20,644 nucleotides of DNA from a virus, in IMG/VR virus record IMGVR_UViG_3300042374_000580, positions 1 through 20,644 of that record. The stretch is one strand, 5' to 3'. Positions 6,383-20,644 of this stretch are shown here, piece by piece. The stretch's first letter is position 1. Each line of letters opens with the position of its first letter. The translations under genes and the position numbers were made by a program. Below the pieces are notes generated by a model. The model saw nothing but the letters and a program-made list of their open reading frames with translations. It searched no databases and had not been told where the DNA came from.

Positions 6383-9300
6383 TTATAAAGTGAATGGAGG
6401 TCCTGTCACTGTTTGTTTTAATACTTGACCTCCAACTGGATATGTTTGTCCATATGGGTAATACTCTATTTGTAATTTAAACACTCCTTTACCTGATAGA
6501 GTACATTCATTAGTATATTTTGTGTCTATACCACCAAGACAACTATATGCGGCAATTTCACCATTAGAATTAAGATATTGAATAGGTCCCTGATTTTGTA
6601 AATCAAAGTTTGGGGCGTTGAATTTAAATGTAATGTAACCACTATTGTCAGGTTTTTTTATGTTGTAATATTGAAATCCATTACCTTGTAATGATGGACT
6701 TTCACCCACTAATGTAATTGAAAGTGGTTGTTCAGGGAATGTTGGTGTTGTTGATGGCGTAGGAGTAAAATTAAAATTAAACGATTGCGGTACGTTTTGA
6801 GGATTTTTAACTTTATCGGTAGGAACGGCAGTAACAGTAAATTTAAGGTTAACTGTTTGTCCATCTTTAACAGGAACTGTTTTAAACTCAGGTATTGGGT
6901 TATTAACCAATATGTCCGCAACATTATTATAAGTTATGTTAAATGTATTGTTTGATACGTAACCTAAAATTGGTGTAGTAACAGTTCTATTTAAAGTCTG
7001 TGTTCTAACATTATTTACAATTGTGTTATCATAAACCGAAACAATCATACTTACTTCATTTTGTAATGTCCAAGTATTAAGTGCCGCAGCATTAGGATTA
7101 ACCGTAACAATTAAATTTAAAGTTGTTCCATTTGGAGTTGTTTGTGTATTATCATCTAAAGTAACTGGTCCAGTTTGTTGTGGTTGAGTATTAGTATTTG
7201 TTGAATTACCTGGTGTTGGAGTTACTTGAGCGGGGTTATAAGTAAACCCACTTAAAGTTGTTCCATTACCGTAAGTTCCTCTAAGAACTATTGGGTTAGT
7301 TTGTGCGGTAGTTGTATTACTATAAGGAACAACAACACTAATGTTAAATGCATTTAAAATAGTAATTCCTGTAGTTGTAGTCACATTATTTATTGTTACA
7401 CCTGTTACTTCGTCTAAGTTCTTACCGACAATAGTTAAAATAGTACCACTCACACCCGTTAACGGTGATAAAGATGTTATAGTTGGTGGAGGACATGATG
7501 GTATAACATTTGTAGTTGTATTTAAATTGTTTGGTAGTGGTGTCACTCCCGCATATGTATCGGCAATTTTTTTCTTTTGTTTGGCATTTGCAACTTTTAA
7601 TTTTGTTGTTGCCTCAACATTTAATCCTGCATCACCTGCCGATTTAAACGCTTTATTAAATGTCGCTTCTAAAGTTTTAAATTCTGTTATATGAGAATCA
7701 AAATATTCTTCTGTAACTCCAGCAACTGGCCAATAACAAACATAATACTTAGTAATACCTAATCCTGTAGTTGCGCCAAATACCCTACTTACATTTGCGG
7801 ATAATTTAGATATCATAAAGTCAAAGAATTTTCCAATAGTATCAAAATTTGCAATAGGCTGTGATGTTTTTTCACTTGTTAAGTTTGGAATATTAACACA
7901 AGAGTATTTTTTAGGACTAAAGAATCCACTACTTTCACCGTAATCTGTTGTTAATGTTACGTTAGCATAATTGTTATTATAACCATAAAATTTATTTTCA
8001 TTAAATATTTTAGCATAACATATCATGTAAATAAGAACTTGTAAATCAGGGTTATTCGTTTTCTTTTCAAGTTCAGAAACAAATTGAGATGGGGTAAGAC
8101 TAACAGTGTTTGATGTCTGTGCGTCACCAAAACTATTATAGGCGGTTGCCAAATTATTACGACACGAGTTTTGTGCCGCGGCAGTACTATCACCTGTTTG
8201 ACTCACATATTTAGATTTATTAATATTTGTAATAGCCTTACCTGAAACATCATCTTTTTTACTTTTAATAATAGCCTCAATTTTACTCAATAAATTTTGA
8301 TTAATACTTTGTAAATAAGTGTCTATTGACGGTAAATCATATATCCCTTGTCTTGTACCTTTAAACGTTGTTTGAAAACTTCCTTGTGTAATATTATGGT
8401 CTACTTCAGTTATAAAATACGGACCATTAAACATTGGAACATGTCTAAGATTAAAATACATTGTTGGTTGCAATAAAGCATTACCTAAACAAACAACACT
8501 ACATTGATAACTTCTCTGTTTGTATAAATTATATAGACTAACATTTTGTGTCGCAACATTTCTACCTGACGCTTGGTCAACCATATTAAGTTGGGTTTGA
8601 ATACTTTCAGAAGTTGCTCTTCCTCCATCCATTCCAACCTGCAACGAATAAAATATATTTTGGTTTCTAATACCAACATCAACATTAAAACCAACACATT
8701 TATTTGAAACCGCATAATCTTTTTTACCTGCAGGGTCTTCAATTAGTGGGTTATCCGACGCTCTTCTTAATTCAAAAGCGTCGTCCCTAAATCTTGAATT
8801 TCCTTTTGGTAAATCTAAATGTGTTGATGGTTGACCAGCATAAAAACAAATCATTTTAGGCCCTGATTTTCTATAATCAACATCTAAAAATGTTCCCCAC
8901 ATGTTGTCAGCAAATTCTAATTTACCTTCAGGTTGCGGTATTGTAGTACCATCCACATCTTGTATATTATAAAAATTAACATAAGCAGGTAACGGCATCA
9001 CATTAAATTTATTTTTAATTAATAAACCACTAACAAATGTGAATACACTCATTTCCATGTTAAGAGAATTCTTACTGAACATATTTTTTAAGTCAAAAAT
9101 ATCAATAATAATTGTATCACCAATATTTCTTGATGCTCTATCTAAAAACATAAAATCTTCAAATAAAGTTTTTGAAGTATAATCTGACCCAGCAATCCAC
9201 TTATCATTTAATCCTTTAAATACTTCATAATTTTCTACCTTACTTTGTTGCCCGTCAATTGTACTTTGAATTACTCTTTCAGGTAATTGTTGTTGGTCAG

Positions 9301-12300
9301 GTAATTTATCTCTTACTTTTGTTAGAATTTGATTTAATATATTGTTTTGAAACTGTGAGGTCAATCCTAAATAAGTTTCAAGACTGTTTTTAAAATCAGC
9401 TGGATTTAAATTTGGATTATACAATTTTTGTGTGGCATACATTTTAATAATTGGCGCCAACAGTACTACATTATCGGAAGTAAATTCAATATTATTATCA
9501 ATAAAAAAATCTGTAATATATGAACCATTATTATCATATATTAAATTTTCAATTGTTGAAAATCCTACTTCCGTTTCTAATGACAACCAAGCTTGTGGAT
9601 ATCTTGACTTAGACAATGCCAAAGTAATTGTATTGGCCTTTGACGGTAAACTATCTTTAATATATGGTGCAAAGTTAATTGGGTCTTGTATTGGGTAATC
9701 TCCATTACCTTGAGTCAAATAAGACGCCATTACCCTTCTATCATATTCTGCAGGGTTACCGTATTTTAAAATCACATCGTACTCTAAAAACGATTTTATA
9801 GTATTTGAAAATATTGTTAATTGTGATTCCCCAATAGTTTTAAAATATTCTCCAGTCGTGACAGAGTCACCTTTACCTTCAATTTCCATTAAATTTCTAA
9901 ACAAGTATTGGAAATTTTTAAATAGGGCATTTTGGTCAACAGGTGAAACACCAATAGGTACAACAAGTTGTGGACCTAAATCAATATTGGCAACTGGTTT
10001 AGAAAAGTTTAAAAACTCCTGTTCAAATTTATCTAAAATAGTTTTATCAAAAACAGAAAATATTTCTTCAATTTTTGAATAATCAAAATCATTTAAGAGT
10101 TTAAAAGATGATTGTTGTTTTGTACCAGTTTCAATTTTATTTATATAAGAATCTGGTAGCGGCCTTGAAATCTCGCTATTTTTAAAATAACCATAATTTG
10201 GTGATGACCATAATAATCTAACGGAACCGTTATAAATTGATGGGTTGTTAATAAATGGACAAACAGGAATATTATTAACTAAACATTCATTTTTAACTTG
10301 GTTAATTTCCGAACCAAAAGACGGTACCACATAATATTTTACCGCAGTTGTGTTGTTACTTGGGTTACATACATTTCCAACATCTGTTGGGTCAAAAGTA
10401 TTATTAGGTAACACAACTGACCATGTTTGAATAGTTGAAAATATTGAACTTGCAATTAATGGAAATGCAACACTTTGTGCATTAATGTTTGAATCCGTAA
10501 AATTATATACTTTAACACCATTATCTATACTTGCCTGTATTTCTGTATCAGTATAACCACTGTATAAATCATAACCATTATAAAAAACATTAAAGTCGTT
10601 AATTACTTTTGGGTAAAATCCTGTTTGAATTTTGGTTATGTTATTTGCGGAACTTTGTAATGTAATCTTATTAACACCGTCAAAATTAAAGGTATATGTT
10701 TTAGTATCTGAACTTGTTATTGGGTCAAAATTTGTTTTGTAATTAAAATCTTTCCATGCCGAATCTAAAATATCAACATTACTATTAACGTAAGTTTTAT
10801 ATCTATACCACACAGAACCCATTTTTAATACCCAAGCATATGGCATTTTGTGAATCGCTCCAAACTTTTTAAAACAAGATGCAATATAATCTAAGTCACT
10901 TGAAACACCATTTGTTTTATATTTTTCTTTTAGAGATGCTAACGGTAAAGAATTAATAAATAGATAAGCGGCTTGTGTGTATGGATACGGGTCTTTCCTT
11001 CTCCAATTATAAACACCATTTTGAATTGCATTAACAAAATAAGGTGTGTTCAACATTGAGGTTGTTGTTTCAATTGGTATATTTTTACTTGGTGAAAGGT
11101 AGTTAACATATCCTTCTGTAGGTATAAAATAAGTGGGGTCTTTTCTAATTAAGTAAAACCCATCCAAACCAATTGAGGTTATTTGATTTACTGGATTGGA
11201 AACATTTAAATATGAAAAATTAGTAACAGGTCTATTTTTACTGTAATCGTAAACACTATTAAAATTTGAAATGACATCTCTATCTTCAAAAACCGTTAAT
11301 ACTCTATTTGTATTATACACAGAATTTTTAGTACTACTAACACTATTCGCCATATTTTTAGAAACCCATGTTGGGTCCGTGAATGGATAAGTGTCAATAA
11401 TTAATGGGTCGTTAGTTACATTTTTGGTTAATTGTAATAGTCCATCTGAGTTTGTAGTTGTTTGAGGTTCTTTACCCAAATCAGTTAAACTTAAAATATT
11501 AAAAGAATTTTGAGTTAAATTTCTAAGATATGGTGTAACAAAAAAATCTCTAAGGTAATCTTGATATGCCCTACCTGTACCTTGATTTGATATGTTTGAT
11601 AAAAACTCTGGGTAGTTTTGCGCGGTAATATTATAATTTTTAAGTTTTAATGTTAAAAATGGTGAACTTATACCCAAACCTGTTACAATGTTATTTGTTT
11701 CAGCACTAACAATTAATTTTGTTAGTTGGTCTATCTGATTGTTATTTGCTCTTATAAATCCAGAATAATTTGATGTTAAAAATTGTCTTTCCCATATTTC
11801 ATAAAAAAACTTAATTTCTTCTTTATTGACATAGGCAATACCTTCTGAAGGATATTCAATTGCATTTACATTAATAATGTTTGTAGTGTTTTGACTATCT
11901 ATTGTAGGTTGAGTTATAGGCAGATTAAATTTTTGTGTTAACCCTTTCATATACTCTTCAACAAATTCAACTTCAGGCCATTTGTCATAAAGATATCCTT
12001 TAGTTAAATTAACTACTGAAGGGTCGGCAATATATTTTAATTGGAATCTACCTTTTTTATCTTCAGGTGTTTCAACAAAAAATTGAGGCCATGGGTAAAC
12101 AGGTATTTGTCCGTTAACTAACCCTTGATTATCATTTTGAGCGGCATTAGTAATTTTAACATTACCCTCTGTATCTGTACCTTGAGCGGATGATGGGTTA
12201 TCAAGTATGGCGTTTTTTCTTACAGGGTCATATTTTACATTCCAAGCATTAGTATGAACCTCATCAAGTAAGCGAATGAATCCTTCAGCCGATGCCATAA

Positions 12301-14038
12301 TTACCGCACAAATATTTCTAACAGTTGGTTTAAACCCAAGACCTGTAGACGAGTCTTCAATCTTTTTAGCCAAATCTGCGGTTATAGCTGTTTCATATTC
12401 AGATAACTTTTTATTAGCTTCGGTTTCCATCTTTGATAATAAATTTTGAAATTCATCAAAAATAAATGCACCTGGTTTAACCAAATTCCCAAACAGATTT
12501 TCAAATGTAGTATTAGAAGTGTCCTTTTCTAAAGTTGGTTTAAACCCTTTTTCTAACAACAATAAAACCGCTTTAGTATCTGCGGTTGTTGGTGATAAAA
12601 CACCTGTTTGTGATGTTGTTGTTTTAACTATGTCTATTTCGGTTGGTGCAACTTGTTTAACCATAGTATTATATGTTATACTATTTTTAATTGGTGTTTT
12701 ACCTAACGTACCTAAAGTTGGGTTAGGACCCAAAACATTAACGTTAAAATCAATAGTATACGCACTTAATAAACTTTTAGCCTCTTCTTTTTTTGTAGGA
12801 TTATCAATAAACTCTTGTTTGAAAATATAAACTTCTTGATTAGTTCCTTTTAATATTATTGGTTTTGGATTCATGTATGTATTAAACCAAGAATCTTTAT
12901 TACCATAAATCTCATTAAAATAATTTTTTAAACCTTCTTTATAATTTCTAATATTAGTTAATGGTTCAATAATAACTGGCGGGTATGCATTTTGAATTGT
13001 TTGTTCAAATGTTTGTAATTGATTCATTAGTTGAGCCACTGTCCATTCTGGAAAATCTGGACTAAGTAACCCTTTAGCTTTATACTCACTATAAACTTCA
13101 GTAATTTTTTGATATCCTCTCTCAGTAACTAATTCACTTGTAAAATTGTCTGTTGATATTGTAGACTGACTTCCCGACGCTCGGTCAACCGTGCCTAATT
13201 GAGATTGAATGTTTGCGTTTCCTGCCCCCTCAGGAGATGTTGGTGATTTTGAAACACCAAAAGTTGTACTGTACATGTGTGGAGTAGCAAATAAACTACC
13301 CATTGAAATTTCATTTAAAATGTTAAATTTATATCCAACAAACTCTAATGTTATTTGGTAATTTCCACTGAACGTGTTGAACCTGGCATTAAATGTTTTA
13401 AGATTTAATTGATATCTAATTGCTTGTCCGTAATAACCTTTAAGGGTTAAATAAAAAGGGCAATATGGTAAATTAAAAAATGCCGAATAAGGTGAGTCAT
13501 TTCCTAATTGAAACAACGCTCTTCCTTGGATATCTTCCAATTCCATCGTTACTTGTGGTACAAAAGACGAATTAGTTTTAACTGAAATACTTGTAATACC
13601 TAATAATCCATTGTCTGTCGCGGTTTGACCTGGATTGTTAACAGTCATTTTTGAATATGGTTTGGTACCATTTTTTGGGTCAATAATTTGTTCCGTCATT
13701 TGGTTTACACCTAAACCATTTCTTGAGTTTTTACCCGTTAATTCATCATAATAACCAGTAGTTAAATTAGTACCTTCGGTAGGTCTTAAAAAGTTCATTT
13801 TAGCAACAGATAGAATTCTAATCCTATCTTCGGGGCTACCACCCACAGACAACTTTGTTCTTGGTACAACTTCAGCCTCAAGATTGGCGTACATCACCAA
13901 ATTCTCATGGTCAACCAATCTTTCACGAATATTTCCAAACGCATCAATGGTTTTATTAGGGTCAACTACAATAATATTATTGTAATCAAACTCTACTAAA
14001 ACATTACCACTGTTATCTCCTTGTACATTACCTGCCAT
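6383..14038 (-). CDS. Giant baseplate hub / tail-tip protein (2551 aa) with IPT/TIG domain
   Basis: This very large structural protein appears to be the central hub or tip of the tail. Residues about 150-290 form a beta-rich region (FYLTLKGYYGQAIRYQLN, then YQITLEFVGYKFNIL) ending in IQSQLGTVDRASGS (277-290). A similar arrangement recurs at about 1770-1910, with IQTQLNMVDQASGR (1813-1826), then CLGNALLQPTMYF and GPYFITEVDHN, which read like late-control-D/gp27-type hub strands. Between them lies an insertion of roughly 1500 aa, rich in Asn, Thr, Tyr and Ser. Residues about 1980-2100 (NENKFYGYNNNYANVTLTTDYG) could be a lysozyme- or glucosaminidase-like domain; this is weak. Residues about 2180-2270 form an IPT/TIG Ig-like domain (TSLSPLTGVSGTILTIVGKNL), then a Pro/Thr linker and a beta-rich C-terminus. 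It overlaps the 107-aa gene by 11 bases. The structural role is confident; the exact T4 counterpart is not. Confidence 0.8.
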   Translation of the reverse strand: MAGNVQGDNSGNVLVEFDYNNIIVVDPNKTIDAFGNIRERLVDHENLVMYANLEAEVVPRTKLSVGGSPEDRIRILSVAKMNFLRPTEGTNLTTGYYDELTGKNSRNGLGVNQMTEQIIDPKNGTKPYSKMTVNNPGQTATDNGLLGITSISVKTNSSFVPQVTMELEDIQGRALFQLGNDSPYSAFFNLPYCPFYLTLKGYYGQAIRYQLNLKTFNARFNTFSGNYQITLEFVGYKFNILNEISMGSLFATPHMYSTTFGVSKSPTSPEGAGNANIQSQLGTVDRASGSQSTISTDNFTSELVTERGYQKITEVYSEYKAKGLLSPDFPEWTVAQLMNQLQTFEQTIQNAYPPVIIEPLTNIRNYKEGLKNYFNEIYGNKDSWFNTYMNPKPIILKGTNQEVYIFKQEFIDNPTKKEEAKSLLSAYTIDFNVNVLGPNPTLGTLGKTPIKNSITYNTMVKQVAPTEIDIVKTTTSQTGVLSPTTADTKAVLLLLEKGFKPTLEKDTSNTTFENLFGNLVKPGAFIFDEFQNLLSKMETEANKKLSEYETAITADLAKKIEDSSTGLGFKPTVRNICAVIMASAEGFIRLLDEVHTNAWNVKYDPVRKNAILDNPSSAQGTDTEGNVKITNAAQNDNQGLVNGQIPVYPWPQFFVETPEDKKGRFQLKYIADPSVVNLTKGYLYDKWPEVEFVEEYMKGLTQKFNLPITQPTIDSQNTTNIINVNAIEYPSEGIAYVNKEEIKFFYEIWERQFLTSNYSGFIRANNNQIDQLTKLIVSAETNNIVTGLGISSPFLTLKLKNYNITAQNYPEFLSNISNQGTGRAYQDYLRDFFVTPYLRNLTQNSFNILSLTDLGKEPQTTTNSDGLLQLTKNVTNDPLIIDTYPFTDPTWVSKNMANSVSSTKNSVYNTNRVLTVFEDRDVISNFNSVYDYSKNRPVTNFSYLNVSNPVNQITSIGLDGFYLIRKDPTYFIPTEGYVNYLSPSKNIPIETTTSMLNTPYFVNAIQNGVYNWRRKDPYPYTQAAYLFINSLPLASLKEKYKTNGVSSDLDYIASCFKKFGAIHKMPYAWVLKMGSVWYRYKTYVNSNVDILDSAWKDFNYKTNFDPITSSDTKTYTFNFDGVNKITLQSSANNITKIQTGFYPKVINDFNVFYNGYDLYSGYTDTEIQASIDNGVKVYNFTDSNINAQSVAFPLIASSIFSTIQTWSVVLPNNTFDPTDVGNVCNPSNNTTAVKYYVVPSFGSEINQVKNECLVNNIPVCPFINNPSIYNGSVRLLWSSPNYGYFKNSEISRPLPDSYINKIETGTKQQSSFKLLNDFDYSKIEEIFSVFDKTILDKFEQEFLNFSKPVANIDLGPQLVVPIGVSPVDQNALFKNFQYLFRNLMEIEGKGDSVTTGEYFKTIGESQLTIFSNTIKSFLEYDVILKYGNPAEYDRRVMASYLTQGNGDYPIQDPINFAPYIKDSLPSKANTITLALSKSRYPQAWLSLETEVGFSTIENLIYDNNGSYITDFFIDNNIEFTSDNVVLLAPIIKMYATQKLYNPNLNPADFKNSLETYLGLTSQFQNNILNQILTKVRDKLPDQQQLPERVIQSTIDGQQSKVENYEVFKGLNDKWIAGSDYTSKTLFEDFMFLDRASRNIGDTIIIDIFDLKNMFSKNSLNMEMSVFTFVSGLLIKNKFNVMPLPAYVNFYNIQDVDGTTIPQPEGKLEFADNMWGTFLDVDYRKSGPKMICFYAGQPSTHLDLPKGNSRFRDDAFELRRASDNPLIEDPAGKKDYAVSNKCVGFNVDVGIRNQNIFYSLQVGMDGGRATSESIQTQLNMVDQASGRNVATQNVSLYNLYKQRSYQCSVVCLGNALLQPTMYFNLRHVPMFNGPYFITEVDHNITQGSFQTTFKGTRQGIYDLPSIDTYLQSINQNLLSKIEAIIKSKKDDVSGKAITNINKSKYVSQTGDSTAAAQNSCRNNLATAYNSFGDAQTSNTVSLTPSQFVSELEKKTNNPDLQVLIYMICYAKIFNENKFYGYNNNYANVTLTTDYGESSGFFSPKKYSCVNIPNLTSEKTSQPIANFDTIGKFFDFMISKLSANVSRVFGATTGLGITKYYVCYWPVAGVTEEYFDSHITEFKTLEATFNKAFKSAGDAGLNVEATTKLKVANAKQKKKIADTYAGVTPLPNNLNTTTNVIPSCPPPTITSLSPLTGVSGTILTIVGKNLDEVTGVTINNVTTTTGITILNAFNISVVVPYSNTTTAQTNPIVLRGTYGNGTTLSGFTYNPAQVTPTPGNSTNTNTQPQQTGPVTLDDNTQTTPNGTTLNLIVTVNPNAAALNTWTLQNEVSMIVSVYDNTIVNNVRTQTLNRTVTTPILGYVSNNTFNITYNNVADILVNNPIPEFKTVPVKDGQTVNLKFTVTAVPTDKVKNPQNVPQSFNFNFTPTPSTTPTFPEQPLSITLVGESPSLQGNGFQYYNIKKPDNSGYITFKFNAPNFDLQNQGPIQYLNSNGEIAAYSCLGGIDTKYTNECTLSGKGVFKLQIEYYPYGQTYPVGGQVLKQTVTGPPFTL

Positions 14039-14351
14039 AATAATAAAAATAGTTATCTAATGACGCTTTATAGTCTTGTAATGAAGGTAGTAGAGGATAA
14101 GGAATAATCAATATAGCACCATCATATATATAATTTTCTAAACCCCCAAACTCAGGATTTGCTTGCAAAATTAACCATCCAAAATACGGAGAGTTATAAA
14201 ATTCTTGGGAAACAATATCTAACCTACTTCTAGCAACTTTATATATGTAAGTCTTATCTGTTGTCTTTTGTGGTATGTTAACAAAGGGCACAACAGTTTG
14301 TTCACCATTAATTAAAAATTCATTATATCTGTTTGAATATTGATATGCCAT
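14028..14351 (-). CDS. Baseplate protein, gp53/LysM-like
   Basis: This 107-aa protein has a LysM-like core: RSRLDIVSQEFYNSPYFGWL (about 42-61), then ILQANPEF, and a closing strand IYDGAILIIPYPL. That pattern is typical of T4 gp53-type baseplate wedge proteins and of the short LysM tail proteins (gpX-like) of contractile phages. In those families the domain packs in the baseplate wedge or around the hub rather than acting as an enzyme. It is shorter than T4 gp53 (about 196 aa). Its ATG overlaps the stop of the 1668-aa gene by one base (TAATG), and its own 3' end overlaps the hub gene by 11 bases, so the three large tail genes are translationally coupled. The N-terminus (AYQYSNRYNEFLINGEQ) shows no signal peptide. 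Confidence 0.72.
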   Translation of the reverse strand: MAYQYSNRYNEFLINGEQTVVPFVNIPQKTTDKTYIYKVARSRLDIVSQEFYNSPYFGWLILQANPEFGGLENYIYDGAILIIPYPLLPSLQDYKASLDNYFYYYGR

Positions 14352-17300
14352 TAGCTAAGTTTTGCTTTAGATATAAATACGTTTGCAGGCTTTTCGTCAT
14401 TCCACGTTTTATTATTTGTGTTTTGGTTTTCAACCCAACCTAAACCTTTTATCAATTGTTGTTGTGCTTCAGTATTTGCGTTTTCAGTATCATAAGTAAA
14501 CGTTCTTTTCTTTTTAAGTGTGAATGGAGTGTATTTTAAGAAATCTTTTAATTTTTCTTTTTCCATATAATTTATAAATTCTTTAGTGATGTTGTTTTCT
14601 TCAACAAATGCAGGTTTTGCAATTTTATCCCAATAAGCATCAAAAACTTCACTAATATTATCAGCACCGTTACCTATTAATCCCGTGTTACCAAGTATAT
14701 TACCAATTAATGCATTTTTAAATGTTTCATATTTTTTACTATCGGTAACATCGTCAGAAACAATCATATAAACATTTCTAAAAATATCATTTTCAAATAA
14801 AGTATTTTCACTAAAAGGTACGAATACTTTTTCACCTGAAGGTAATTTATAAGGTAAAGGTAAAACTAAAGTTCCTTTATATTTTTTACCAGAATAAGTA
14901 AATTCTTGTTCAGTTTCTACAATCGTATTAAATTCAGTAATTCCGCTGTTTATTTTTTTAACATCATTTTCAAGTTCAACTAAAGTATCTGTTGCTGGTG
15001 ATGAACTAGTATCAACCTCTGTTGTTGGATATAATATATATGAAAACACTTTACCGTTACTTTGTTGATACCCATCAGTTCCTGTATTAGGGTTTACACT
15101 ATATGTTATAGTATTAATTCTTCCAATATATCCAATATAACTTTGTTGTACTGCAACCATACTATTTGTAATATTAGTTATCGCACTTTGAAATGAACTT
15201 CTTTTACCACCAACAAAGTTTGAATAGTTTTCCTTAACTTGTCTTATAAGTTTGTTTGAAAATAATTTAGAACTATCCGAGATAAACGTTATAAATCCTT
15301 CGTCACCGTCTTTAATGTCTTTAACAAGTTGTGCAAATATCTCATCTGTTCTCTTTTCTAAATTAGAAGACTTACCAAAAAGTATTGTTTTCTTATCTTT
15401 TTCTATTGTAAAATTACCCTCAGTATATACTCGTTCCATCATCCATTGTTGACGAACGGCATTATTATATTGGTTAACCGTTTCTCTATTTTTATTAACA
15501 ACATTTGTAAAATATGATTGAGTCTCTGTCACAACTTTATCCATGAAAATACTATAGTTAATTGTACCTGTTTGACCTGTATCACTTATAACATTACTTG
15601 TTACAGTACCAATTGGTTTATCATTACTTTGACCATTATTAGGTGTTGATTGATTAATAGTTGGAGGCCCAACATTGCTTGGCGCCAATTTTAAAAATTC
15701 AGCGTCAATTACTTTATAACTTAAATCGGTTGCGTCCGCCCTATCATCATATATTTCAGTATTAGCATAATAGTTAAACGTTAACGCATTTTGTAATTTA
15801 TCAACCGATTCTTTTAATCCGCTACCACCAACAAAATTAAATGATAAAGTAACATTAGCAATCATAGGTTGAACCCCAATACCTTCAGGGTTTATATCTA
15901 AATTTTCATATTGAATAGATAAGTTATTTGGAATTATCTTTGTATTGTAAAAATCTCCAACCCTTAAAATTAAAACGGGTGGTGCACCAAAAGACGTGTT
16001 TGTTGCATCATTATATACGGGTGTTGGTGCTCCGTCAATAGTTTTAATTGTTGGTATTGTATCACCAGGTCTCATACATTGTTGTAAGAACGTTAATCTT
16101 GAATTAAGACCTTCTGGAGTAATTGAGTGGAATGCTGGCTGAAAGAATTTTAATTTATCTCTAAGGTTGTCATAAACCATTGGAGTTTCTTCTTTAATTG
16201 TTTCAAAATAATCACACTCTGATAATAAAGAACGTAAAATTCTTTTACTTATATTATCTTTATTAACTATTTTTTCTTCAATTACTGGAACTGTTTCCGT
16301 TTTTGTAACAACATTACCTGTAATTACAGTAGTTTCTTTAGGAGGTGGTACAACTTTTGGCGCCTTTAATGTTGATTGAATGTCAGAAATATAGGCTCTT
16401 CTACAAGCCATTGCATTTGTTGTATAAATTTCTTTATTTAAAGCTTGACTGTCAGCACCATCACCATCACCACAAGAAACACTGCTTCCTGGCACAAAAC
16501 TTTTAGTTTTATCGTCATACTTTAATACTTGAGCATTTTCACCTAACGCGGCACCAACTTTAACAATTAATCTTTGTGGAGTACCAGTGACATATTTTTT
16601 CATCTTAGTGTTACCTGTAATGTATATCGCAGCAGAATCAATTCTTCTTGCGGATAATTTATCGTTATATGCCTTTTTGGCTGCGGGTGATGTACTACTA
16701 CTAATAATAATAGTTACCGTACCTTCGGGGTTATTAGTAAATTGTTTATCTAATTCATTAATTAACTTATCAATATTATCTTTGTTTGGTGTGACTACAC
16801 TATCAAAGAATGAGGTTGTTTGAGCAGAAGTACTTGGTGATTTTTTCTGATAATCGGTTTTTTGTGAAATATATGGTCCATATAATTCAGCAAAATTTTG
16901 ATTAAGTTTTTTTGGTATATCATTATCAAAATAAAAACCACTTTGTTTGTAGATTTTTAATTCGTCTTCAGGAGAACCTCCAGTTCCTGTATCACTAGAT
17001 AAGTCAGGAGTTGTTTTAATTGTACTAATAGTATATTCTAACTGTTCTTTTGTTAATTCTTTTGATGAAATAGCTTGTTGTATGTCAAATAAATCATTAG
17101 GCGATATTGTATAATATTTTTTTGCAAGTTCATATAAATCATATTTTCTACATCCAGCAAAAAATGATTCTAAAATACTATCAACTCTAACTTTATTTGT
17201 TTCATTTGCCAACACTTTATTAACAATAACATTTAAAACAGACGGATGGTCAACAACTATTTTCCAAGTTAAACTACCAGACCTATTTGTACTCTTATAA

Positions 17301-19357
17301 GTGTATATTGGCTCTGGTCTGCCTATAAATTCATTGGCATTCCAATTAGCGGTAACAGTTTCACTAAAAGTTAAACCATATGGCGGGAACCACATAACTC
17401 TACCTCCGTTTGGTCCTCGTTCACAAACTGGTAAATCCGCAACAGCAAATCCTGGTGTGTTTGAAGTTGCCCATGCCAAATTTTCAAGTGAGAACATATA
17501 TTTTTTAGCATACGCATTATTATAACTTCCAATCAAATTGGTTGAATCTTGTCCACCTTCTTGTTTGTTTGGAGCAATATTAAGATTATATGTCTTATCT
17601 AATACTGAATATGAAAATCTTCTACCTTCGGTTACAATACCATCAGTTTTTTGAAGGTCATTATATTGAAGATATGGTACGTCTTTAGCAAAAACTCTAC
17701 AATATTCAGTTCCAACTTCTTGTCCAATAGAACCCGTATATTGTATAACCCTTGAGCCCTTAGTTAATTCTTTGTAACCATCATGGAATACCTTACTAAC
17801 TTGGTCAATCGCATTACCAACGTGTTGTAATCTTTTACCACCTTCTGGTTGACTATCAATAAGTCTTTGAGTATCGTCAAGTATAGAACCTTGTTTAAAT
17901 TTCCTTTCTGTAGATTCAGTTGTATTATATGATGAAGGTTTAAAGTCTTCATCTTGGTCCAATATAACCCCACCAACACCTACTTTCTTACCTGCATTTC
18001 CTTTGTATTTTGGAGATACCCAAGTAAATCCACCTTCAATACCACCACCATTACTATATGTCGGACCATTAGCCCCTAAACGAATTTCTTTACTTGGACC
18101 TTCATATAATTGTGCCAACTCATGTGGTCCATATACAGGTGATTGTTGTTCGTTACCAAACGCATCAACAGGTAATGCCCTACTTGGTGAGAATACTCTT
18201 GACGGGTCAGAACTTGTTGACCCAACATAAAAGTTAGAATTATTTGTTTCGGTACCTACAATTGCACCTCCTAATCTATCAAGTAATGTTCTATCGTAAT
18301 TTGGTTTATATCTATTGTAGTTAATGTTTTTCCACAATATAGATTTTTGTCCCGCACCAGTATTGTTATAGAATATCTGTGTACCTGTTTTACCCGCCCC
18401 TAATAAATTACTAACAAAGTTACCTACCGCAGCAAGTGGATTTGCTAATAAAGCTTGTCCAATTGTTGTTGGTTGGCCAGGATTAATATTTGGGTCAAAG
18501 TATGAACCAGGTATTAATGAAAACGGTAAAAGACTACCACCTAATCTAAGTCCAAAGTCGGCTGCGGCTGTTATAGGATTAGAAGGAACGGTAATCTGAT
18601 AATTAGGTTCAATTAACGGAACTCTACCTGTTAAAATATTAACAAGATTTGTACTACTATTAACATTTAAAAAGTTTGCACGACCAATAGTTTCTCTAAT
18701 AATCGCTCTACCAATTCTTTCTTCAAATTCTTTTTTAAGTGTCTTTGCACCTAAACGGGCTATAAATGAATCTTGACTTAATAATCCATTACTACCTGTT
18801 GGGTCGGGACTTAATAAAATTGATAACGGTGTATATGAAGATGAATTAAAGGTTGTTGGATAAGGTTGATTATTATATAACTGTCTTATACCACCTGGTA
18901 ATGAACTTGAGATTGTATCTGGTGTTGTAATATAAACACCAGCATCATATTGTTCTAACCCTCCATTACCAAAAGCATTAACGGCCAAATAAGGCCCAGT
19001 AATACCATTAAACCCTGTTTGTGCAGCAATCTTGGCTTGGTCAATAATGTTAGCGTCTTGTTGACCAGGACCATATTCACCTTTGTTTGATACTGTATTT
19101 AAGTTTCCACTAATATCAGGTGCTTGTTTATAACCTCCGTCATTACCCCATTTATTAAGTGGGTATTGTTTATCAGCAAAAAAAGTTGTATCAATAAGAC
19201 CATCAGGACTATCAACTACAGAATAATCTGATTGAATGACTTCATAAGTTGTTGGAGGCGTAACTTTAGTAGGGGACTTAGCATATGGTACTAAATTCCT
19301 TGTTATAAGTTTTTTTCTAAAACCTTCTGAGCTTATATAATCTAATGGACTACCCAT
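14351..19357 (-). CDS. Large baseplate/tail-tube-cap-like protein (1668 aa) with internal OmpA-like domain
   Basis: This structural protein follows the tape measure gene. Residues 1-620 are Gly/Pro/Asn-rich with no recognised fold. Residues about 655-705 (MWFPPYGLTFSETVTANW, FIGRPEPIYTYKSTNRSGSL) resemble the GR-x-DP-x-x-x-Y-x-x-T-x-R segment of T4-like baseplate tube-cap proteins (gp48/gp54 class). Residues about 1125-1205 (PPVLILRVGDFYNTKIIPNN, NPEGIGVQPMIANVTLSFNF, NYYANTEIYDDRA) read like the second half of the same fold. Between them, about 805-992, is an OmpA-C-like module: GFYFDNDIP, a helix ending at FTNNPEGT, strand VTIIIS, YNDKLSARRIDSAAIYI, and a final ACRRAYISDI. Residues 1210-1668 are helical and mixed, unrecognised. 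No signal peptide is present. It is likely a virion baseplate component that may touch the cell wall; the OmpA module is confident, the T4 counterpart tentative. Confidence 0.78.
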   Translation of the reverse strand: MGSPLDYISSEGFRKKLITRNLVPYAKSPTKVTPPTTYEVIQSDYSVVDSPDGLIDTTFFADKQYPLNKWGNDGGYKQAPDISGNLNTVSNKGEYGPGQQDANIIDQAKIAAQTGFNGITGPYLAVNAFGNGGLEQYDAGVYITTPDTISSSLPGGIRQLYNNQPYPTTFNSSSYTPLSILLSPDPTGSNGLLSQDSFIARLGAKTLKKEFEERIGRAIIRETIGRANFLNVNSSTNLVNILTGRVPLIEPNYQITVPSNPITAAADFGLRLGGSLLPFSLIPGSYFDPNINPGQPTTIGQALLANPLAAVGNFVSNLLGAGKTGTQIFYNNTGAGQKSILWKNINYNRYKPNYDRTLLDRLGGAIVGTETNNSNFYVGSTSSDPSRVFSPSRALPVDAFGNEQQSPVYGPHELAQLYEGPSKEIRLGANGPTYSNGGGIEGGFTWVSPKYKGNAGKKVGVGGVILDQDEDFKPSSYNTTESTERKFKQGSILDDTQRLIDSQPEGGKRLQHVGNAIDQVSKVFHDGYKELTKGSRVIQYTGSIGQEVGTEYCRVFAKDVPYLQYNDLQKTDGIVTEGRRFSYSVLDKTYNLNIAPNKQEGGQDSTNLIGSYNNAYAKKYMFSLENLAWATSNTPGFAVADLPVCERGPNGGRVMWFPPYGLTFSETVTANWNANEFIGRPEPIYTYKSTNRSGSLTWKIVVDHPSVLNVIVNKVLANETNKVRVDSILESFFAGCRKYDLYELAKKYYTISPNDLFDIQQAISSKELTKEQLEYTISTIKTTPDLSSDTGTGGSPEDELKIYKQSGFYFDNDIPKKLNQNFAELYGPYISQKTDYQKKSPSTSAQTTSFFDSVVTPNKDNIDKLINELDKQFTNNPEGTVTIIISSSTSPAAKKAYNDKLSARRIDSAAIYITGNTKMKKYVTGTPQRLIVKVGAALGENAQVLKYDDKTKSFVPGSSVSCGDGDGADSQALNKEIYTTNAMACRRAYISDIQSTLKAPKVVPPPKETTVITGNVVTKTETVPVIEEKIVNKDNISKRILRSLLSECDYFETIKEETPMVYDNLRDKLKFFQPAFHSITPEGLNSRLTFLQQCMRPGDTIPTIKTIDGAPTPVYNDATNTSFGAPPVLILRVGDFYNTKIIPNNLSIQYENLDINPEGIGVQPMIANVTLSFNFVGGSGLKESVDKLQNALTFNYYANTEIYDDRADATDLSYKVIDAEFLKLAPSNVGPPTINQSTPNNGQSNDKPIGTVTSNVISDTGQTGTINYSIFMDKVVTETQSYFTNVVNKNRETVNQYNNAVRQQWMMERVYTEGNFTIEKDKKTILFGKSSNLEKRTDEIFAQLVKDIKDGDEGFITFISDSSKLFSNKLIRQVKENYSNFVGGKRSSFQSAITNITNSMVAVQQSYIGYIGRINTITYSVNPNTGTDGYQQSNGKVFSYILYPTTEVDTSSSPATDTLVELENDVKKINSGITEFNTIVETEQEFTYSGKKYKGTLVLPLPYKLPSGEKVFVPFSENTLFENDIFRNVYMIVSDDVTDSKKYETFKNALIGNILGNTGLIGNGADNISEVFDAYWDKIAKPAFVEENNITKEFINYMEKEKLKDFLKYTPFTLKKKRTFTYDTENANTEAQQQLIKGLGWVENQNTNNKTWNDEKPANVFISKAKLS

Positions 19358-19405: not shown

Positions 19406-20644
19406 TTATCTTCTTTCTAACTCTTTTGCTTTCTGATTATAGTATTCGTAAATTTTTCTTTTGAATTCATCTGATTCAAAAAATGTTTTAAATTGTTGTT
19501 CACTAACACCTGGAGGAGCATCTACTTTAATTGTAATTGTGCCACCAAAATCTACTTGTGAATTAACATTTGTTGTCTTTGTTTTATTTTCTTGGGCAAT
19601 CGCTGAACTTCCTTTACCAAAAACCGCACTTCTTGATAATGGTTCTGATTTTTGTGTTCCTGTAATTCCCGCAACTTTTGCTGTTGTATTCCCACCAATA
19701 CCTGTTAAAATATCTGAAGTATATTTTCTAAACTCTTTTTCAATACCACTATCACCTTTAACTTTTTCATTACTTTTAACTAATATGTCTCTTAAGGCGT
19801 CCATACCTTTTGGACCTAAACTTGATGCTTGGGCTTTAAGGTCAGATTGAATTGATTCTAAGTTTTTAGTAAATGTTGCGTTATCCATTTTACCTTGTTC
19901 TTTACCAACAAATAAATCACGCATTCTATCAATAGCCCCTGTTACTTTTTCAGAAATAACTCTACTTTCAGGTACTTCACCTTCAACAGAAGAACTAACC
20001 GCTCTTGCAATTCTCTCAGCACCTCTAACGTTACCTTGAACATACTTTGAGGACGCAACCCCAAAAGTTGCCTTTGCAGCAGCAGATTGCATATTTGCCA
20101 ATATGTCTTTTTGAACACCTAATTGACTTTTTTGTATATCTTCAACAGTTTTTGGAGCGTTCTTTTGTTGTTCAATTAACTCATCAAATTCTTCTTGATT
20201 AAGGTTTTGTAATTCTTTTTTGGTTCCATCTTTTAATTCAACCTCATATTTTCCACCTTTACCCATTTTGGATATGTTAGCCAAATATTGTTTGTCTTCC
20301 TCATTTTCAAACTTTAAACCCGCCAAACTAACTTCAGACAATCTTTTGTCTAATTCCGCTGCAGCTAAACCCATTTTACTCATTTCCGCAGCACTAACAC
20401 CAGTTTGTTTTTCCATTTCTCTTAATGTTAAAACACCTTGGGGATTTATTTTAAATGATTTTGTCTCTTCATCAAAATATGTGAATTGTTTTGATACTTC
20501 AGCTAAACTATTTTGTAATCCAGATGGGTCGTTAATAGATTGATTCATTAAAGCAAATGGGTCTGCCAAATTACCAACAGACACTCCTAATCTTTGAAAC
20601 GCGGCTGCGGTATCAATAGCTCCTTCAGGGTCTAAAACTCTATT
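19406..20644 (-). CDS. Tail tape measure protein, C-terminal part, cut by window edge
   Basis: The window holds the last 412 residues. The frame is open through the right edge, starting NRVLDPEGAIDTAAAFQRLG, so the GTG at 20584 is not a real start. The segment is helical and Ala/Lys/Glu-rich (QTGVSAAEMSKMGLAAAELDKRLSE), then a long low-complexity helical stretch. It ends in a short beta segment GGTITIKVDAPPGV and a charged helix FESDEFKRKIYEYYNQKAKEL, an ending common in tape measure proteins of large myophages. Such proteins set tail length inside the tube. The place directly upstream of large baseplate genes fits the usual tail gene order. The call rests on composition, ending and position rather than a catalytic motif. 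The gene ends with TAA, immediately followed by an in-frame ATG. Confidence 0.78.
   Translation of the reverse strand, partial: NRVLDPEGAIDTAAAFQRLGVSVGNLADPFALMNQSINDPSGLQNSLAEVSKQFTYFDEETKSFKINPQGVLTLREMEKQTGVSAAEMSKMGLAAAELDKRLSEVSLAGLKFENEEDKQYLANISKMGKGGKYEVELKDGTKKELQNLNQEEFDELIEQQKNAPKTVEDIQKSQLGVQKDILANMQSAAAKATFGVASSKYVQGNVRGAERIARAVSSSVEGEVPESRVISEKVTGAIDRMRDLFVGKEQGKMDNATFTKNLESIQSDLKAQASSLGPKGMDALRDILVKSNEKVKGDSGIEKEFRKYTSDILTGIGGNTTAKVAGITGTQKSEPLSRSAVFGKGSSAIAQENKTKTTNVNSQVDFGGTITIKVDAPPGVSEQQFKTFFESDEFKRKIYEYYNQKAKELERR

Follow-up and report, generated by a model that had tools for sequence, protein, structure and literature searches.

The window, which is the whole 20.6-kb virus record analysed here, covers the end of a tail structural module together with a replication module. 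The minus strand holds every recognisable gene, and searches across the window for tRNA genes and Rfam families returned none. It carries an open reading frame for a 1,668-residue baseplate protein (14351..19357, −), a probable tail-tube initiator carrying an OmpA domain. The reading frame itself, viral homologues, synteny with gp035 of Flavobacterium phage vB_FspM_immuto_2-6A (NC_055915; immuto below) and Foldseek matches of the regions flanking the domain all contribute to this description. The previous gene encodes a partial tape measure protein (19406..20644, −), assigned by position and by its resemblance to tape-measure reading frames of two relatives, L046 and L147. The next encodes a 107-residue gp53-like baseplate wedge protein (14028..14351, −; phrog_7145, E = 0.0018), whose syntenic counterpart, immuto gp034, matches the same PHROG family at 1.1e-10. 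Beyond it, in the hub position, is a 2,551-residue protein (6383..14038, −) that has no family match of its own and was assigned by position and by the wall hydrolases of its syntenic relatives.

A gene placed between the tape measure and the hub of a contractile tail is common to the window, L046, L147 and immuto; the sheath genes of L147 (PF17482, 6.7e-6) and immuto indicate that the tail is contractile. At least 588 viral contigs encode homologues of the 1,668-residue protein. A PHROGs search with this protein gave nothing useful, BLAST of the window and L046 proteins against isolated phages gave no match, and the nearest viral match by structure is to an uncharacterized protein from an uncultured phage.

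An OmpA-family domain in a baseplate protein

Residues ~806–996 of the 1,668-residue protein (16370..16942, −) form a domain of the OmpA/Pal/MotB family. Profile searches, predicted fold, synteny and comparison with an empty site support this identity together with the insertion of the domain in a tail-baseplate domain. A preliminary description of the sequence had placed an OmpA-like module at 16382–16945 (−), that is, residues 805–992 of the frame 14351–19357. These coordinates are correct, and the motifs it listed are in place: YFDND at 809–813, Ser890, Asn898, Arg905 and CRR at 985–987. Its identification of the module as OmpA-type also holds, both in the profiles of relatives, which match OmpA-type proteins, and in the predicted fold.

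Taken alone, the window sequence gives a faint signal. PF00691 scored 16.1 bits (E = 2.1e-4), below the Pfam cut-off of 27.2 bits; a whole-protein Pfam scan missed the domain, and the excised piece had PF00691 as its top Pfam match at E = 0.028. Such scores would suit a chance resemblance in a domain that is not OmpA at all. The relatives give a clear match. Members of another clade, which comes from rumen and related samples and shares ~30–33% identity with the window protein over the aligned region, match PF00691 at the homologous place with E-values down to 5.6e-6. Across the family, 21 of 35 diverse members match PF00691 (best 5.1e-7), and any other family is matched in at most one member. 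Pfam gave no LysM match in the protein. A profile of the freshwater clade, built from 19 relatives of the domain and searched against all PDB sequences, matched 38, nearly all of the OmpA, Pal, YfiB or MotB type, with PorE as the best (1.3e-5); the rumen-clade profile likewise found OmpA-family chains first (1.9e-5 and 2.3e-5).

AlphaFold modelled the domain with a pLDDT of 85.3 and a pTM of 0.85. The order of elements, beta-alpha-beta-alpha-beta-(hairpin)-beta, is the OmpA topology of beta-alpha-beta-alpha-beta-beta with two additions, helices after strand 1 and a hairpin before the last strand. Foldseek ranked PorE first, followed by Acinetobacter baumannii OmpA (with glycine or diaminopimelate, DAP), Capnocytophaga OmpA and Pal; the E-values are modest singly (0.003 and above), and the weight lies in the list as a whole. 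Independent profile matches from two diverged clades, the fold, and an invariant motif at the exact spacing of the family together refute chance resemblance, to which we assign a negligible probability.

Two cysteines, Cys962 and Cys985 (window 16403–16474), are invariant in the window clade and stand on either side of a disordered loop before the last strand. A disulfide is present in a comparable bulge of E. coli OmpA and of RmpM (PMC7192894), so a Cys962–Cys985 disulfide in the virion is possible.

Insertion between two conserved halves

Comparison with uninterrupted relatives supports the insertion of a complete OmpA/Pal-type domain between two halves of a tail-baseplate domain. The first half of this tube-like domain (residues ~648–706; 17240..17416, −) is 80–90% identical across the family, and the second (residues ~1081–1180; 15818..16117, −) is 80–93% identical. 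Between them lies the inserted region, with approximate boundaries (residues ~707–1079; 16121..17239, −), which is absent from immuto gp035. In 40-residue blocks, mean identity to the window is 80–93% in the flanks, which rank with the best-conserved parts of the 1,668-residue protein, and 43–61% in the OmpA domain. With the OmpA region cut out, the joined flanks match an uninterrupted domain (profile–profile P = 3.2e-6, probability 88%) carried by immuto gp035, Microcystis phage Mel-JY01 and the 484-kb record LR756508. This alignment spans both halves, and the second half alone reaches P = 0.0016. A flank-profile search of the immuto genome found gp035 at E = 1.1e-4, by way of the first half.

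Immuto was reached through its recombinase, which is 44% identical to that of the window over 98% of its length. Replication genes follow one order in both genomes (SSB, recombinase, exonuclease, DnaB and ribonucleotide reductase), and the immuto tail genes run in a matching order: sheath, tube, hub subunit, tape measure, gp036, gp035, gp034 and a hub 'carboxypeptidase'. Immuto gp035 is syntenic with the 1,668-residue protein and has homologous tube-domain halves, but it is only 716 residues long and its halves are contiguous; PF00691 found no match in the whole immuto genome at E-values up to 10. With the same gene order and no OmpA domain, immuto is effectively the empty site. The comparison is compatible either with gain of the insertion in the lineage of the window or with its loss in that of immuto. 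A literature search for structural proteomics of immuto found none.

The insertion is old, since OmpA-like sequence occupies this position in contigs from freshwater, from rumen and from MAG bins, including relatives down to ~24% best-segment identity. Among the divergent relatives, Pfam detects OmpA in L146 and L151; in L147, L148 and L150 the domain was recognised from the motif by eye or at a lower score.

Gene position and weak fold matches of the flanks suggest that the 1,668-residue protein is the tail-tube initiator (tube cap), which we consider probable and hold with moderate confidence. The AlphaFold model of residues 540–1245 (706 residues) is poor outside the OmpA island (pLDDT 55), and this keeps the tube-cap assignment at a moderate level. 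Foldseek of this low-confidence flank model returned, beside OmpA, baseplate proteins of AFP, PVC, AlgoCIS, cyanophage A-1(L), P1 and Milano, with E-values of 0.05–0.5 for the AFP, PVC, AlgoCIS, A-1(L) and P1 chains. Comparison of the flank profile with 14 CIS_tube proteins was no more than suggestive (P = 0.008), and a PDB search with the profile of the flanks alone returned only weak matches to unrelated proteins, such as aequorin. The preliminary description had seen the segments on either side as halves of a tube-cap domain; the match of the joined flanks to an uninterrupted domain and the Foldseek matches of the flank model uphold this, more weakly than the OmpA identity.

A conserved pocket in a variable domain

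PorE, the protein of the Bacteroidota type IX secretion system whose C-terminal OmpA-like domain (PDB 6TOP) is the top PDB match by both profile and fold, provides a map of the ligand pocket. In its complex with natural stem peptide, DAP is held by Arg591, Asp576 and Asn584, and Phe541, Tyr583 and Ile587 make hydrophobic contacts to it (PMC7192894). Similarly, the type VI secretion protein TagL needs Asn494, Leu497 and Arg501 for wall binding (PMC8253398). The phage counterpart is the motif Ser890-x6-Tyr897-Asn898-x2-Leu901-x3-Arg905 (16643..16690, −). It corresponds to PorE Asp576/Tyr583/Asn584/Ile587/Arg591, and its residues have offsets identical to the Asp/Tyr/Asn/Leu-Ile/Arg series of 0, 7, 8, 11 and 15.

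Across residues 875–925 in 91 window-clade sequences, no columns other than these five reach 95% identity. Asn898, Leu901 and Arg905, at the canonical spacing of the DAP pocket, each occur in 91/91 sequences, and Phe810, which maps to PorE Phe541, is also invariant. The chance that all five motif positions fall among the 19 most conserved of the 189 domain columns is P ~6e-6, a value that treats columns as independent and ignores the role of some of these residues in the fold.

Ser890 is likewise present in 91/91 sequences, so the usual DAP-contacting Asp is absent from the window clade. This substitution had been read from the window sequence in the preliminary description, and it proves true of all 91 relatives scored. 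Most rumen members also have Ser at this position, and a small rumen group (L142, L143 and L145) has Asp. Ser-type bacterial OmpA proteins exist in Bacteroidota MAGs (L168 and L171), which indicates that the Asp does not strictly define the OmpA family. Together with the presence of Ser throughout the clade, they mark the Asp-to-Ser change as a clade feature and not as decay in the window.

The conserved pocket must be set against the rapid change of the domain around it. Between the window and L054, the adjoining flanks reach 95% amino-acid identity and most of the OmpA domain is 31–50% identical. Mean divergence at four-fold sites is only modestly higher in the OmpA domain than in the flanks, but single pairs (L082/L079) resemble domain exchange. 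The mosaic pattern plus fast evolution is compatible with either cassette exchange or plain fast evolution. A second hypervariable segment lies near the N terminus of the protein (window 18866–18997, residues 121–164), where residues 121–160 have a mean identity of 0.32 compared with ~0.7–0.8 in most adjoining blocks.

Conservation of the pocket within a fast-changing domain favours putative binding of stem peptide over a purely structural role, although the needs of the fold may also maintain the Asn, Leu and Arg. The structural alternative, which we regard as the main rival although unlikely, is that the OmpA fold was exapted as a spacer or clamp linking the initiator with the wedges or the hub, with peptidoglycan binding lost. 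It draws on the Asp-to-Ser change throughout the window clade and on a precedent in other tube initiators: phage Mu gp43 and AlgoCIS Alg7 each join a tube-like beta-barrel to a LysM module, from a peptidoglycan-binding family, and these comparably placed modules are described as contacting wedges and as structural clamps (PMC11915804, PMC8894135). Purely structural use sits poorly with the conservation of Tyr897, Asn898, Leu901 and Arg905, which vary least of all columns in a domain whose identity elsewhere falls to ~30%. A separate gp53-like protein is encoded for the clamp position, and immuto manages without an OmpA domain.

The variation could instead reflect an altered pocket that binds another ligand or partner, for example a component of the cell envelope or of the virion, and so contributes to host specificity, with fast and partly mosaic change as host adaptation. 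Strong variation outside the pocket, even between phages with near-identical flanks, and the apparent domain exchange in single pairs would suit this reading. Stem peptides differ very little between Gram-negative bacteria, and an invariant pocket fits such a constant ligand; we therefore consider a different ligand improbable.

A proposed model of wall docking, and the likely host

Our best explanation, which we rate as somewhat probable, is that the 1,668-residue protein is an OmpA-bearing tube initiator of a contractile-tailed phage, with a wall-docking module at the tube tip. Because the OmpA domain is inserted in the tube domain, the ring that starts the tail tube would display OmpA domains around the tip, six of them if the ring is hexameric by analogy with Mu. 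Sheath contraction would drive the tube and hub across the outer membrane and bring the tip into the periplasm. There the OmpA domains would meet peptidoglycan and could bind the DAP-containing stem peptide through Phe810, Tyr897, Asn898, Leu901 and Arg905. Bound domains would hold the tip against the wall while hydrolases of the hub open it.

For the docking step itself, in which virion-borne OmpA domains would fasten the injection machine to the stem peptides of the target with Ser in place of the pocket Asp, we put the prospects at about even. The evidence leans towards it, since the five mapped contacts are kept in a domain that otherwise drifts, and the far greater variability of the domain than of its flanks is as expected of an exposed module. 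In L147, a rumen relative, and in immuto, the syntenic hub genes encode wall hydrolases. The L147 hub protein (12960–18206) carries at its C terminus (residues ~1576–1739) an endolysin/Peptidase M15-like domain (phrog_894, 6e-22; Peptidase_M15_3), and the hub-position gene of immuto is annotated as a carboxypeptidase. Family searches recognised no hydrolase in the 2,551-residue hub protein of the window, and a lysozyme-like fold guessed there was unsupported on checking.

Known systems offer partial parallels. PorE has the same spacing of pocket residues and belongs to a large envelope-spanning machine, but it is a cellular periplasmic lipoprotein that anchors the machine of its own cell, has the Asp and lacks a tube domain. 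In TagL an OmpA-type domain serves a phage-tail-like contractile machine; unlike the phage protein, TagL is a membrane protein outside the tail and anchors the attacker's membrane complex to the attacker's own wall. Mu gp43 and AlgoCIS Alg7 differ in having the LysM fold, placed C-terminally or in a helix-rich domain, whereas here an OmpA domain lies inside a phage tube domain. Tube initiators with modules of wall-binding families are thus already known in the LysM form; a search limited to open-licence papers found no precedent for an OmpA domain in a phage baseplate.

Little is settled about how a contractile tail deals with peptidoglycan once it has crossed the outer membrane, and the OmpA domain gives a handle on this step. 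The domain is defined and expressible and its pocket is mapped, the cultured phage immuto serves as a natural domain-free control, and natural variants number in the hundreds. The finding also brings an annotation to a protein found in several hundred viral contigs. If wall binding is true, phages would anchor to the wall of their target with the domain family of OmpA, Pal, flagellar motors and secretion systems. The phage itself would then supply the wall-anchoring step, as a counterpart to type VI and type IX machines, which fasten to the wall of the cell that makes them.

The phage lineage likely infects Bacteroidota, as contigs of relatives fell into MAG bins of Bacteroidales, Paludibacteraceae and other Bacteroidota, and the closest phage in culture infects Flavobacterium; two other relatives were binned elsewhere, with Mycoplasmatota and Nealsonbacteria. 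A host-gene origin of the phage OmpA domain is plausible. When phage OmpA domains were placed in one tree with bacterial ones, the freshwater clade and the rumen clade each formed one group, and the branches were very long; the tree placed no close bacterial donor and did not separate a single from a double origin.

One of the 35 aligned family members gave a weak match to TssR_C (E = 0.0021); TssR is part of the Bacteroidota type VI secretion system. Two 412-kb rumen phage records encode a separate OmpA-type outer-membrane protein (L155, 724–1755 in G004; L156 in G005), with an apparent signal peptide, a barrel-like region and, at the C terminus, an OmpA domain that scores above the Pfam cut-off. 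Such a putative outer-membrane protein of phage origin could help to exclude superinfecting phages or to remodel the envelope.
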